NCBI GenBank assembly: GCA_030647005.1
Contig: JAUSKG010000014.1
Location: 1-32,302, forward strand
Reading direction: 5' to 3'
Length of the DNA stretch: 32,302 bases
DNA from: a bacterium
GTDB taxonomy: Bacteria; Patescibacteriota; Patescibacteriia; JACPHY01
How positions within the stretch are numbered: the first letter of the stretch is position 1; the number at the start of each line of letters is the position of its first letter. This document shows, one piece after another, positions 4,571 to 29,092 of this stretch. A program made the translations under genes and the position numbers. The notes under the pieces are model-generated. The model worked only from the letters and a program-made list of their open reading frames with translations, was not told where the DNA came from and searched no databases.

Positions 4571-4587
4571 GACACCTCTACAAGAGT

Positions 4588-4672
4588 CGTCATTTCGACC
4601 GAAGGGAGAAATCTCACCCGCCACAATCACTGTACCCTGTGAGATTTCTCCTCGCGGATTCGTCGAAATGAC
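4588..4672. repeat. Palindromic dispersed repeat, copy 2
   Basis: Starts CGTCATTTCGACCGAAGGG and ends GATTCGTCGAAATGACAG, with internal AGAAATCTCAC and GTGAGATTTCTC arms, so it can fold as a long imperfect hairpin. Same family as 717-836, 9853-9944 and 28722-28809. Confidence 0.85.
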
Positions 4673-4708
4673 AGAACGCGGGAGTTTTGCAGATGCTTCT
4701 CAAGAAGA

Positions 4709-4739: not shown

Positions 4740-5720
4740 TCACCCGATGATGAACTTGAGCATCGGGCCGCAGGTGATGACATCGCGCATCGTCGGTGGA
4801 CGGAGCTCACCATCAATCTGCGTGATGGTTGGCGTAGCGTACTCGATGATCGTCGTGCGCGCCGTGGCATCGAGCACGAGATCCGGTACGCTCCAGCCGA
4901 CCCAGATGCGCCCGATGTTGTTGAGCACCTGCCAGAAGGTCATCTGTGCCGAGCGTACCATGAAGTGCCCGGGAACACGCATGGCATCGGGAAGTGCCCG
5001 ACAGTTGAGGCCCACCTGATCAATGGAGCCCACCATGATGCCGTTATGGAGCTCACGGTCGGCGAAACGTGCGTCATGGCCGCGGGGCAAGAGGATCGTC
5101 GCGCGCACCGGTTTCATGAGGAGCTGCTTGGGTTGCCGACGCGGGAGGAGGCCCAGGAGTTCATCCCAGAACATCTCCGCGAGGACAACCGCGCCGCGCA
5201 TACCGCCCACCGTGGAGCGGTCCGCGTAGTACCGCTCGAGCAGGTTCACCGCCATGCCCGCGCCGTAGAGGAAGCCGTACTCGTCGTTGACGCGAAGGGG
5301 GTACGCGTGTGCGTAGTCAAACGGCAGCCCCTCGCGCAGCTTCGTCGCCACGCGCTCGGCGAGCGCGACCGGCGAGAACCGCGTCGCGCCGATCGTGGCG
5401 GCAACGTTGTTCATGGTGCCGGTGGCGAGGAGCAGGATCTCCGGAATCTTCGTGCTCGATTGCCCGTGACGCTTGACCAAGAGCGCGGTGATCGCGCGAT
5501 GGAGCGTCCCATCGCCACCAGCGAGCGCGAGGATGTCCGGTTGATCGCGATGAATCTGCGCCGCGGCTCGCTCGAGGTCCGCGAGCGTCTGCGTGCTGTA
5601 GATGCGATTGGGGTTTGGCGGCCGCGCGAGAATGGATCCGATCACCTTCCCCATACCGGCACGCCGCGTGTGCTGTCCTGCGTTCGGATTGTCTATATAC
5701 GAAATGCTCCTGTCGTTCAC
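4740..5720 (-). CDS. Diacylglycerol kinase family lipid kinase
   Basis: The product is 326 aa. The start is a GTG at 5720, chosen because AGGAGGGAG lies just upstream; the frame stays open for another 37 codons without such a site. The family's nucleotide-binding elements are clear: NPNAG (11-15), the glycine-rich LAGGDGTL (66-73) and a GTMNN segment near residue 98. The C-terminal half, with YGAGMAVN and later strands, is the usual beta-sandwich part. Relatives of the DgkB/YegS type phosphorylate diacylglycerol or similar lipids at the membrane with ATP, returning the product to phospholipid synthesis; some relatives act on other substrates. The length is normal for the family. No TM segment is present. 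The lipid substrate cannot be told from sequence. Confidence 0.88.
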   Translation of the reverse strand: MNDRSISYIDNPNAGQHTRRAGMGKVIGSILARPPNPNRIYSTQTLADLERAAAQIHRDQPDILALAGGDGTLHRAITALLVKRHGQSSTKIPEILLLATGTMNNVAATIGATRFSPVALAERVATKLREGLPFDYAHAYPLRVNDEYGFLYGAGMAVNLLERYYADRSTVGGMRGAVVLAEMFWDELLGLLPRRQPKQLLMKPVRATILLPRGHDARFADRELHNGIMVGSIDQVGLNCRALPDAMRVPGHFMVRSAQMTFWQVLNNIGRIWVGWSVPDLVLDATARTTIIEYATPTITQIDGELRPPTMRDVITCGPMLKFIIG

Positions 5721-5815
5721 GTACTCCCTCCTCCTCAGACCATGCAAGGTGCTGCCCCCAGTGTTGCACGCAGCGTGCGGAGCATCAAGTGCGTGGACTC
5801 GTGCGCGGCGGTGCC

Positions 5816-6027: not shown

Positions 6028-6699
6028 GTGTGCCGTCGCGAGATGATCTCGCTCGCGTTGAAGCACTGGTCGCTACGGAGGCCGGTGGTGGCGTGGGGTC
6101 TTACCGCATTGACGTTGGCCGTGGTGGCGCTCGCGCTCCGGCCTGGCCCGTTCTCCGTGCCAATCCTGGTCCTTGCAACGGCTTCGGTCGCGATGGCTGT
6201 GATACACGTCATGGACATGCGCTCCTGTCCGCAGGATTTCATCAGTCACGCCGACTACGAGAACCTCCGGAAGCGCCTCGCCGCGGAAGACCCGTTCTAC
6301 CGGCGCATTATCCTCGCGCTGGACACAGCGAAGGCATGGAGTGTTCTCGTGGAGCGGTACGATGCGTGGCGGCTCGCGGTCCAATCCGGCCTCACCCCGT
6401 GCAATGCAGCACTCGATGAGCGGAATCGCTCCATCCTCACACGCGGCGCACAGCAACTGGGGCGTACGTTCGACCAACTTGAGGCGGTCCGCATGCTCAT
6501 CGCGAACGCGAACCACAGCATCAACGAGGAGTCGCTCGCACACTTCCTCGAACACCTCAACGCCGGAGAGGAAGACCTCAGCGCGCTCGCTGCGATCCAC
6601 CTTGAGGAACCGCTCGCACTCCTCGAACGCGAGCACGAAACCGAGAAGGCCCTCGAGCAGCTCAACCACGAGCTCCGAACACTCGCGGAGACCGCGTAG
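6028..6699 (+). CDS. Membrane protein with C-terminal coiled coil (3' part of split gene)
   Basis: This is a 223-aa frame if read from GTG at 6028; there is no good ribosome binding site for that start, and the frame is continuous with 5884 except for one TAG. Two membrane spans lie at about residues 20-37 and 43-62. A mostly helical soluble region follows and ends in a coiled coil (about 180-222) rich in Leu and Glu. If the TAG is ignored the whole protein is about 271 residues. No enzymatic motif is seen. A bidirectional terminator follows at 6718-6741. Function unknown; a membrane-tethered scaffold is only a guess. Confidence 0.65.
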   Translation: MCRREMISLALKHWSLRRPVVAWGLTALTLAVVALALRPGPFSVPILVLATASVAMAVIHVMDMRSCPQDFISHADYENLRKRLAAEDPFYRRIILALDTAKAWSVLVERYDAWRLAVQSGLTPCNAALDERNRSILTRGAQQLGRTFDQLEAVRMLIANANHSINEESLAHFLEHLNAGEEDLSALAAIHLEEPLALLEREHETEKALEQLNHELRTLAETA

Positions 6700-7351: not shown

Positions 7352-7434
7352 TGGGCGGGGTGGGACTTGAACCCACATGGGGTTGCCCCCACCGGCTCCT
7401 AAGGCCGGCGTGTCTGCCATTCCACCACCCGCCC
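7352..7434 (-). tRNA. tRNA-Leu (anticodon TAG)
   Basis: A class II tRNA of 83 nt. The acceptor is GGGCGGG/CCCGCCC, the anticodon stem is CCGGC/GCCGG with loop CTTAGGA (anticodon TAG, reads CTA), there is a long variable arm, and the T loop is TTCAAGT. Discriminator A; CCA not encoded. Confidence 0.95.
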
Positions 7435-7472
7435 GTGTGGTTCTTGTATCGTACCACGAGCCGATCGTCAAA

Positions 7473-26519: not shown

Positions 26520-27395
26520 CTAGGCAACAAATACTTGCGGTGCTTCCGCGACCTTCTTGAGGGCCGCTTCAAGTGCCCTACTCCGTCTCCACTGCGTGCT
26601 GGCGACCCCGTGCAACGCGCGGGCGGCGATGCTGAGCGTCGTGAAGCGCGCCGCTGCGATACTCAGCACACGGTCCCTCTGGGCGACAACGTCATTGAGG
26701 TGCTCGTTTGCCGCGTGGACCCCGCCGAATCGAGCGCGCAGCTCCGTGTTCTCGATGCGCAGACGCTCCGTCGCGCGCTCTTGTTTCTCCACGAGCTCCT
26801 GGGCCTTCTCCAGTTGCGTCTGCTCCGCAGCAACCTGTTGCGCGGCACTGAGCACGTCGTCGATGGTGCAGTCGCCGACGAGGCATCGAAGTAGCAGGTT
26901 GGGATCCGGCACGTACTGGCACGCGCTCACGTAGTAGCGCATGTACAGCTCAGGATAGTCGTCGCTGTATCTGCGCGCCTTTTCGAGGTCCAGGGTGGTG
27001 AATCGTTCGCCGTCAGGAGCAACAACCTCGATGGCGGTTTGGTAGAACGCGTGTACGATCCCGCCGATTACCGGTCCCTCGGGCACCCAGATGTTTTCGG
27101 TGTCCACGGAGAGCTCGCGGTGATCTCCCTGTCCCGCGCCTTGGATCTTGATGAGCATCGGGTAGGCCTCCTTTGAGGCGTTCTTTCCCGATCCGCTGGT
27201 GAGATCAACGATCACGGCGGCGACCCCGTATTGCTGCTCCTCGTGAAGCGTGAACGAGACGCTGCTCACCTTCGCTCCAGGGAGAGTGCTCGCACGGCAT
27301 GACGATCCAAGGAATGTGAGCTCCGGCTCGTTTCGCGGAGCGATGGTAGCAACCGAACCAGCGACACGCGCAAACAACAACTGACCTGGCTTCAT
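26520..27395 (-). CDS. Hypothetical protein with C-terminal coiled coil
   Basis: The product is 291 aa from ATG 27395, set by TTGGAGGCATTC; the frame is open further upstream but without signals. Residues 1-150 are beta-rich (LLFARVAGSVATI, VSSVSFTLHEEQQYGVAAVIVDL, MLIKIQG). A helical region follows, then a coiled coil at about 190-245 (EKAQELVEKQERATERLRIE). The SPFH/flotillin proteins have a similar beta-then-coiled-coil order, but there is no TM segment and no clear motif, so I do not assign it. It has its own strong promoter and a leader of about 115 nt that can fold into a hairpin. Confidence 0.75.
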   Translation of the reverse strand: MKPGQLLFARVAGSVATIAPRNEPELTFLGSSCRASTLPGAKVSSVSFTLHEEQQYGVAAVIVDLTSGSGKNASKEAYPMLIKIQGAGQGDHRELSVDTENIWVPEGPVIGGIVHAFYQTAIEVVAPDGERFTTLDLEKARRYSDDYPELYMRYYVSACQYVPDPNLLLRCLVGDCTIDDVLSAAQQVAAEQTQLEKAQELVEKQERATERLRIENTELRARFGGVHAANEHLNDVVAQRDRVLSIAAARFTTLSIAARALHGVASTQWRRSRALEAALKKVAEAPQVFVA

Positions 27396-27416
27396 GAATG
27401 CCTCCAACAAATGACC

Positions 27417-27474
27417 GGGGATCCCCCGGGTTCGAGGTTTTTTCGGTGGCCGGAAACCCGGATCCACCTACGCA
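27417..27474 (-). promoter_or_regulatory. Leader hairpin of 26520-27395
   Basis: On the minus strand GGATCCGGGTT pairs with AACCCG-GGG-GATCC, with a bulge, across an A-rich loop. It ends about 10 nt before the TTGGAGG ribosome binding site, so it could influence translation. No known riboswitch is recognised. Confidence 0.4.
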
Positions 27475-27518
27475 GCACGACTGACATTGTGCGTCCCCTG
27501 CGTTATCAGGACATTTCC

Positions 27519-27547
27519 ATCATAGCACGGGTTGGATTACTTGTCAA
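27519..27547 (-). promoter_or_regulatory. Promoter of 26520-27395
   Basis: TTGACA (27547-27542), 17 nt, TATGAT (27524-27519) on the minus strand. Near-consensus. Confidence 0.85.
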
Positions 27548-27612
27548 TCTATAATGTTAGTATATATAGACATGAATAATAGCTATATTGAGCCAAGCCA
27601 ATAAAATAGGTC

Positions 27613-27641
27613 TTGACACGTCTGACACGGCATGGTATACT
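27613..27641 (+). promoter_or_regulatory. Very strong promoter of the structured RNA segment
   Basis: TTGACA (27613-27618), 17 nt, TGG-TATACT (27636-27641): consensus -35, near-consensus -10 and an extended -10. An AT-rich stretch lies upstream (about 27550-27612). It faces away from the promoter at 27519-27547. Confidence 0.88.
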
Positions 27642-27647
27642 AGAAAT

Positions 27648-28040
27648 GTTGAAGATAAGAGCCGCTTCAGTGGCTCGAGTTCAGGAGAAGTTTCGTCAGC
27701 GCGGATAGAAACTTCACAATACAAACCCGCTGATTGTCGGCGAGGATCGTGGTGTCGTTCGATAGTGTCAATCGCCTGACAAGCAGCAAACCCTACTGGC
27801 TCCTGCGCCTCCTGCGCGAGCCAAGAGGAGAGAGCCCTGGTGACTTGGGTCAAAGTCATAGCCCCGGTGGTGTTCGGTGAGCGATTCGACGGAACGAGCG
27901 ATCGCTCGCTCCACCCCGGACCGGTGTATGATGCGCCAAGGAATAGGCGCTCCACGGTCCGGGGCGTTCACCGAACATCATTGCCTCACCAACAATCCGA
28001 AACTCCCTCCTCGTGTCCTGAGGAGGGAGTTTCGTGCTTG
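27648..28040 (+). ncRNA. Candidate structured RNA of about 390 nt, class unknown
   Basis: It begins at the predicted start of a very strong promoter and has no credible reading frame. Visible pairings: GAGCC/GGCTC (27659-27676); GAAGTTTC/GAAACTTC (27687-27715), whose loop TCAGCG pairs with CGCTGA (27728-27733), an H-type pseudoknot; a 10-bp stem 27734-27743/27772-27782; TGGCTC/GAGCCA with GCGC/GCGC (27797-27823), whose loop CTCCT pairs with AGGAG (27826-27830), a second pseudoknot; TGACTT/AAGTCA (27841-27858); and TGTTCGGTGA/TCACCGAACA (27871-27977) enclosing CCCCGGACCG/CGGTCCGGGG. A 14-bp terminator-like hairpin ends it. tmRNA and RNase P RNA hallmarks are missing. It may be a new RNA or a long leader. 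Confidence 0.55.
27998..28034 (+). terminator. Terminator-like hairpin of the structured RNA
   Basis: CGAAACTCCCTCCT pairs perfectly (14 bp) with AGGAGGGAGTTTCG around a 9-nt loop. GTGCTTG follows, so the T-run is weak and readthrough is possible. Confidence 0.6.
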
Positions 28041-28050
28041 AGCATGTTCA

Positions 28051-28105
28051 CCACCTCATGAGCGCGGCGCTGGTACTTGTGACCAGAGCTGCGCTCATGA
28101 GGTGG
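28051..28105. repeat. Perfect 15-bp inverted repeat with inner hairpin
   Basis: CCACCTCATGAGCGC (28051-28065) pairs exactly with 28091-28105. Inside, CTGGT/ACCAG (28070-28086) forms a second stem. It lies just past the structured RNA. Confidence 0.75.
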
Positions 28106-28399
28106 CGATGGATCCGACACAACCCCGACCGTTGATGCGATGTCGGAATTCCATCTGAGCACCGCTCTGAGCGGTCCTCGGATGGGAAACGGTTGCTACC
28201 GTGCAAGTCGCTGGAGGCCGTTTGCGGGTACACTCCCGCAGACCCGCCCGAGAAAGTGTCCAGTACGCTATCGTGCGAGGTCCAAACTCGCAACGTCGCG
28301 TACCAAGGTTACTACAGTGACCGTTTCCCAAACCCTTACGTCGAAGAAAGCAAATTCCCATACAAACCCGCCCCGGGGTGAAGGGGGAAAGGACAACCG
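28106..28399. other. Hairpin-packed leader upstream of the 76-aa gene
   Basis: No gene is seen. Successive hairpins: a 13-bp stem with bulge (28107-28155), ACCGCT/AGCGGT (28161-28175), ACGGT/ACCGT, TGCGGG/CCCGCA, GTACGC/GCGTAC enclosing TGCGAG/CTCGCA, and GGTTAC/GTGACC. It ends with the CCCGCCCCGGGG leader motif (28365-28386). No separate promoter is visible, so it may be read from 27613. Confidence 0.45.
28365..28386 (+). repeat. GC-rich leader motif, copy 1
   Basis: CGCCCCGGGGTGAAGGGG and four flanking bases, 14 nt before ATG 28400, are identical to 29056-29077 before the next gene. It contains the palindrome CCCCGGGG and supplies the purine-rich ribosome binding region. Confidence 0.75.
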
Positions 28400-28630
28400 A
28401 TGAAGGTTTTTGTTCTTGTGGAAACCATGCAGAGCTTCAACGACTCCTTCGAGGTTCTTGATGTCTACATGAGTCGAGAAAAGGCGGATGAGGAGGCCAA
28501 ACGGCTGCGCGATGCGGAGGAGGAGGCCGAACGGCTGCGAGTTATGGAAGAAGGGCGGTTCGGCGATGGTGTCGACCCCCCCCAAGCGTTCCCGAAGTAC
28601 GAGGTCATCGAGAAGGAGGTGATCGAGTAG
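28400..28630 (+). CDS. Small acidic protein, beta strand plus charged helix
   Basis: The product is 76 aa from ATG 28400, preceded by AAAGGAC 7 nt upstream. The order is a strand (KVFVLVETM), a second strand (SFEVLDVYMS), a long charged helix (REKADEEAKRLRDAEEEAER, about 26-48) and a final YEVIEKEVIE strand. This resembles the small phage-type or mobile-element proteins that begin MKVYVL and carry SREKAEE. Such proteins have no known function. The codon string AAACGGCTGCGC/GAACGGCTGCGA shows a short internal duplication. A 10-bp hairpin follows at 28642-28671. Confidence 0.7.
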   Translation: MKVFVLVETMQSFNDSFEVLDVYMSREKADEEAKRLRDAEEEAERLRVMEEGRFGDGVDPPQAFPKYEVIEKEVIE

Positions 28631-28809: not shown

Positions 28810-28929
28810 ACAGGGAGGGTGAGCCGATCACGTCATCGGCATCTCGCATGGACGGTGGAGGACCGCGCTACGCCGAGCAATCGGAGTACCTCCAACGTCC
28901 ATGCGGGATCGCGGTGCGATTCCGGAGAC

Positions 28930-29016
28930 GGCACTGCTCAGCAGCAAGAGGACGGGTTGTCCTGCCCGCAAGGGTCGCTGAGGTAAGGGTGGGTTCGATT
29001 CCCGCCGGTGCCACCA
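28930..29016 (+). ncRNA. tRNA-like element ending in CCA
   Basis: The 3' part is that of a tRNA: T arm GTGGG-TTCGATT-CCCGC, acceptor strand CGGTGCC, then ACCA. GGCACTG (28930-28936) can pair with CGGTGCC over all 7 positions (one U-G wobble). Between them CTCAGC pairs with GCTGAG, enclosing either GGAC/GTCC and CCC/GGG hairpins or a CGGGT/GCCCG hairpin. No standard D arm and no 7-nt anticodon loop with U33 can be drawn. It may be a degenerate or unusual class II tRNA, a tRNA mimic in the leader of the next gene, or a remnant of an attachment site. Confidence 0.5.
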
Positions 29017-29055: not shown

Positions 29056-29077
29056 AACCCGCCCCGGGGTGAAGGGG
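29056..29077 (+). repeat. GC-rich leader motif, copy 2
   Basis: Identical 22-bp core to 28365-28386, here 16 nt before ATG 29093. Confidence 0.75.
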
Positions 29078-29092
29078 AGAAAGTGACACGTG

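Follow-up and report, generated by a model that had tools for sequence, protein, structure and literature searches.

The intergenic stretch between the 315-aa and 76-aa genes of this contig carries, judging from its sequence, a real and undescribed structured RNA gene (27613-28034), for which one homologue was found and a revised structure is proposed. The window analysed, 32,302 nucleotides, is one entire contig (G000:C14) of a ~1.06 Mb genome in 35 contigs (98% complete), in which the gene is present as a single copy. The gene is considered real because a gene sharing its promoter box, core, closing helix and terminator lies between the same landmarks in a same-genus genome, G001 (JAUSKM010000028.1; locus L024, on contig G001:C41). 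The undescribed structured RNA put forward in the preliminary description is thus supported, having its own promoter and terminator and being kept in a second species. We lean towards a stand-alone gene whose structured RNA acts in trans via its core in a raiA/ModT-like manner. The RNA is presumably transcribed, and its promoter suggests that it could be abundant. The same contig encodes rnpA and trxB, identified by Pfam hits; translations also revealed dnaA-, dnaN- and polA-like genes. The features of the locus are collected in Table 1.

Table 1. Features in and around the RNA gene in the window, with the corresponding features at the G001 locus (coordinates in L024)
Feature	Position in window	Strand	Sequence or property	G001
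Upstream neighbour, divergent 315-aa gene	26520-27467	minus	No Pfam match	
Upstream box	27578-27596	plus	AATAGCTATATTGAGCCAA	AATAGCTACATTGAGCCAA; shared part AATAGCTAYATTGAGCCAA
Sigma-70-type promoter	27613-27641	plus	TTGACA-17-TATACT, extended -10 TG	TTGACA-17-TATAAT
RNA gene	27648-28034	plus	~385-390 nt; start placed from promoter, end from hairpin	
P1	27647-27651 / 27990-27994	plus	TGTTG/CAACA; in both minimum-energy folds	GGTTTT/AAAACC
P2 hairpin	27687-27715	plus	GAAGTTTC/GAAACTTC	Shorter (GAAG/CTTC)
Candidate pseudoknot a	27739-27781	plus	GGCGA 27739-27743/TCGCC 27772-27776 interleaved with TGTCA 27766-27770/TGACA 27777-27781	
P4 hairpin	27798-27822	plus	GGCTC...GAGCC; in both minimum-energy folds	GGCAGA...TCTGCC
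Core	27824-27837	plus	AGAGGAGAGAGCCC, 14 nt, purine-rich	Identical
Candidate pseudoknot b	27834-27859	plus	GCCC/GGGT interleaved with GTGAC 27840-27844/GTCAT 27855-27859	Sequence kept
P5 long arm	27868-27883 / 27965-27980	plus	Variable tip; in both minimum-energy folds	Sequence differs
Terminator-like hairpin	27998-28034	plus	CGAAACTCCCTCCTC..GAGGAGGGAGTTTCG, perfect stem, 15-16 bp	
Second shared element	~28140-28240		Large hairpin, shared string TACCGTGCAAG, then G+C-rich hairpin	~4575-4690
Downstream neighbour, 76-aa gene	28400-28630		Weak likeness to DUF7336	
Palindromic repeat copies	28840-28915			2540-2610, 5664-5740, 6120-6190, 7365-7440
tRNA-like element	28930-29016	plus		6340-6426

Promoter, terminator and coding potential

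The promoter with an extended -10 that had been described earlier was borne out, matching 11/12 consensus positions and representing the best plus-strand site in the 32 kb. Sites of this quality are rare: both strands of the whole window contain only two, against an expectation of 0.05 from shuffled sequence, and the second one is a divergent minus-strand promoter at 27547. The conserved upstream box could possibly be a UP element or a regulator site. At the 3' end, the terminator-like hairpin first read as 14 bp is real and slightly longer (Table 1), without a clear or long T tract. A hairpin of the same type (AAACACCTCCC..GGGAGGTGTTTGG) closes the genome's RNase P RNA gene, whose promoter style is also alike. 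Since the minus strand folds as stably as the plus strand, the orientation of the RNA rests on the promoter and terminator.

The earlier statement that the segment holds no credible gene was confirmed, as no protein frame is conserved across it and the substitutions are indifferent to codon position. A 132-aa open frame on the minus strand (27557-27955) was rejected as a protein, with G001 substitutions spread evenly over codon positions (7/5/6 and 9/5/7). Additionally, a small membrane-peptide ORF located 3' of the terminator in G001 had no convincing counterpart in the window.

Predicted structure

The segment 27648-28040 folds at -188.4 kcal/mol with a z-score of -7.2 (-7.7 in a second run), compared with a mean of -1.2 (sd 1.9, minimum -5.7) for 35 windows of the same length along the contig. 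The G001 RNA has a fold z-score of -5.2. In the proposed mechanism, a near-consensus sigma-70-type promoter would drive a transcript of ~385 nt, which P1 would close on itself; hairpins and two likely pseudoknots would order the RNA around the invariant core, and a strong hairpin would end the transcript. The core, which includes a Shine-Dalgarno-like AGGAG, would then act in trans.

Besides the parts listed in Table 1, a helix P3 is paired in both species (GCTG/CAGC here and GCGGC/GTCGC in G001). The P2 loop carries a GCGGAT common to G001, and CTTCACAA within P2 is shared as well. In both species the core is followed by GTGAC...GTCA. P5 forms a helix of 16 columns, about half of whose 5' positions have changed in G001.

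The preliminary description had placed H-type pseudoknots at 27687-27733 and 27797-27830. Both can form here, but neither is kept in G001, which has no equivalent of the 8-bp pairing of the former and has GTA in place of the CCTCCT loop of the latter. The candidate H-type pseudoknots a and b are better supported, because their sequences are kept in G001. The region of pseudoknot a is retained there as GGCGAG...ATAGTGTCAA...TGACA, and GCGAGT/ACTCGC pairs in a shifted register.

The homologue in G001

A DNA search of 57 genomes retrieved only G001, through one 38-nt match covering the promoter, with the whole gene behind the match. Other short matches in these genomes, such as one beside a tRNA gene at G000:C27, were attributed to chance. 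The upstream box, promoter, P2 motifs, core, closing helix and terminator are common to both species. The peripheral arms have been rewritten in G001 with pairing retained, and several helices changed on both strands still pair there. Neither of the refuting checks proposed in the preliminary description, on reading frame and on compensatory changes, counted against the RNA. Synteny extends to both flanks of the locus, where trxB lies to one side and a tRNA-like element plus a 198-aa gene to the other. The genes immediately flanking the RNA differ between the window and G001, making a leader of a single gene less likely.

A hand alignment of the two sequences, built around the shared anchors with the structure in mind and with one G001 base dropped, gave an RNAalifold z-score of -10 against column shuffles, or -6.8 without the terminator. 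Pairs altered on both sides were no more numerous in this alignment than in shuffles, and two homologues are too few for an R-scape-type covariation test.

Distribution and comparison with known RNAs

None of 4227 Rfam models, including the raiA motif, matched the RNA at gathering or permissive thresholds; the only sub-threshold matches were chance ones to eukaryotic microRNA hairpins and the like. The absence of tmRNA and RNase P features noted earlier was correct, with no Rfam match near any gathering score. For tmRNA (RF00023), no match was found at 27400-28300, and the tmRNA matches of the genome lie on C17 and C1. RNase P RNA (RF00010) had no match at the locus, the genome's own copy being on contig C12 (141.8 bits). 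The 6S RNA model (RF00013) matched none of 13 genomes of the class (this genome and 12 relatives); 6S RNA is a rod with a central bubble, whereas the RNA described here has a branched fold. The SRP RNA model (RF00169) likewise found nothing at the RNA locus or in the same 13 genomes, and a divergent SRP RNA may lie elsewhere in the genome.

The covariance searches in relatives found no third copy: a model of the core (R1) run against 381 genomes of the class matched only this genome and G001. The same two genomes were the only ones found among 36 relatives, under lax filters, with model R3, which has 159 positions and was built from copies of both sequences trimmed and slightly edited to help alignment. 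Five further weak R1/R3 matches (14-18 bits), read singly, look like chance. Scanning 84,980 species genomes for the pattern returned only G001, its six other matches being chance hits of at most 14 bits in unrelated bacteria. No copy was found in viral contigs, and a literature search on RNAs of this lineage yielded nothing relevant. At the available sensitivity, the RNA is therefore genus-restricted.

Among known systems, the raiA motif (ModT) is an orphan, non-coding structured RNA with a closing helix, several paired regions, two pseudoknots and an appended terminator; it occurs in more than 2,500 species of Bacillota and Actinomycetota, and its abundance has been shown (PMC11706538). The RNA described here shares the closing helix, the paired regions, two (here candidate) pseudoknots, the terminator and the lack of protein coding, but ModT is about half as long and gives no sequence or covariance match. 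GOLLD, ROOL and OLE are likewise orphan, large and ornate bacterial RNAs (PMC12286853); unlike the present RNA, which matches none of them, they are larger and represented in Rfam. tmRNA is of similar length and forms a ring with several pseudoknots and an end helix that closes it, but the RNA here has neither tRNA-like ends nor a tag frame. RNase P RNA is comparable in size and in its style of promoter and terminator, although its conserved P4 sequences are lacking here. By analogy with orphan RNAs such as raiA/ModT, the gene would most likely encode a trans-acting structured RNA or a ribonucleoprotein scaffold working through the core.

Most bacteria with such small genomes have not been cultured, and their structured RNAs have been little explored; among the genomes tested, not one gave a match even to the standard SRP RNA model. 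With a strong promoter, a size like that of RNase P RNA and conservation of promoter and core in both species, the RNA could plausibly be one of the lineage's major cellular RNAs.

Alternative explanations

The main rival to a stand-alone gene is a regulated leader (attenuator), in which the core, as GAGGAGAGAG, would pair with the terminator 5' arm CTCCCTCCTC and break the terminator. Polymerase would then continue into the hairpin element that follows, the tRNA-like element (28930) and the 198-aa gene. As in attenuators and riboswitch leaders, a conserved core could compete for a terminator arm: of the 336 14-nt stretches in the RNA, the core (-15.2 kcal/mol) ranks first as a complement of the 5' arm, a preference that is weaker in G001, where two overlapping stretches of 286 surpass it. 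Additionally, the two species have the same 17 nt in the 5' arm (shared CCGAAACTCCCTCCTCG), while the 3' arm has drifted. Conservation of the arm beyond what pairing with its own partner requires counts against a stand-alone gene and fits the attenuator. Just 5' of the tRNA-like element, a promoter-like site was seen in neither the window nor G001, although several copies in other genomes have one directly upstream. However, the terminator hairpin (-28.5) far exceeds the core pairing in strength, and the content up to the tRNA-like element, which lies 0.9 kb away here and 1.9 kb away in G001, is not conserved. The immediate downstream genes differ between the species, only the distant element and gene being shared, so the conserved downstream gene of typical leaders is missing, as is any known aptamer. 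A loosely similar order is present in G058 (locus L072), where a promoter, GGAGAGAGCC with a hairpin, a terminator and a tRNA-like element follow one another, and perhaps, less clearly, in G086; the similarity to the core in G058 reaches only E ~0.3, and the likeness is only a lead. Near other tRNA-like loci, R1 and R3 detected only the weak L072 similarity, and a search for the L072 unit in G058 relatives found none, returning only the common palindromic repeat and promoter-like matches. Considering both sides, we regard a regulated leader as rather unlikely. A bolder version, which we hold to be quite improbable, is that the RNA gates an RNA-only operon: the core would toggle between the pseudoknotted fold and an opened terminator, and read-through would deliver the anticodon-less tRNA-like RNA. 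G058 and possibly G086 would then carry divergent pairs of leader and tRNA-like RNA. If the nearness to the newly recognised tRNA-like family is functional, the locus would represent a new kind of RNA operon.

Two further readings were weighed against the stand-alone structured RNA. The C/U-rich terminator arm CTCCCTCCTC or the AGGAG core could bind Shine-Dalgarno or anti-Shine-Dalgarno sequences of mRNAs in trans, given that both are the best-kept parts of the RNA and complementary to AGGAGG-type and CCTCC-type sequences. Such regulation by mRNA pairing is very unlikely here, as the arm is held in a perfect 15-bp stem and mRNA-base-pairing regulatory RNAs are usually far less ornate than this one. 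It is also conceivable that the segment is no RNA gene but palindromic, repeat-rich DNA behind a chance promoter, and the surrounding intergenic DNA is indeed full of palindromic repeats. The conservation of promoter, core and terminator at a syntenic place in the other species, the single copy in the genome and a degree of structure far above the contig background make this extremely improbable.

An anticodon-less tRNA-like RNA downstream

The tRNA-like element located downstream of the RNA is 90% identical to its G001 copy. An acceptor stem of 7 bp, a T arm and CCA are present, and a 6-bp helix enclosing two hairpins replaces the D and anticodon arms. Neither ARAGORN nor Rfam made a call at the element. 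A model built from three sequences recovered 14 loci scoring at least 44 bits in the class, 12 of them outside this genus in a dozen other genomes (L039-L050), and ARAGORN called none of the 14 a tRNA at the element. Matches scoring below 44 bits were mostly ordinary tRNAs. In the model-fitted alignment of the 14 loci, 97.9% of cells pair compared with 79% in shuffles; furthermore, both partners vary in 15 of the 21 pairs (8 in shuffles), and sliding the partners drops pairing to 34-54%. Fitting the alignment to the model is expected to account for part of these signals. The family is rare in the phylum: 380 genomes drawn from it added a single match, at 43.6 bits. No protein neighbours were generally common to the loci. 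The tRNA-like RNA is possibly a more interesting find than the 390-nt RNA.

In two genomes, a DHH-like gene adjoins either the tRNA-like element or the RNA. Its protein is 58% identical between G001 (L024 2598-3725) and a genome of another family (L071 1493-2467), close to the 64% identity of trxB within the genus, which suggests that the gene may have been transferred.

Other elements of the locus

A second tmRNA-like gene was observed in the same genome (L007 1501-1901; G000:C1:4926-5326) at 106 bits, not called by ARAGORN and with a possible long tag ending in ASAIA; the usual tmRNA is on C17. Directly 3' of the RNA's terminator, the window contains a near-perfect hairpin of ~20 bp (28045-28111, CCACCTCATGAGCGC...GCGCTCATGAGGTGG) that is absent in G001. 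The second structured element common to the window and G001 is located in the interval from the RNA to the tRNA-like element. A palindromic repeat family with a common inside (GGAG..CCGCGCTAC..GTACTCC or alike) and variable outer stems is scattered over both loci. In addition, the string CCCGCCCCGGGGTGAAGGGG is found at ~28367-28384 and 29061-29078, shortly 5' of the 76-aa and 198-aa ORFs.
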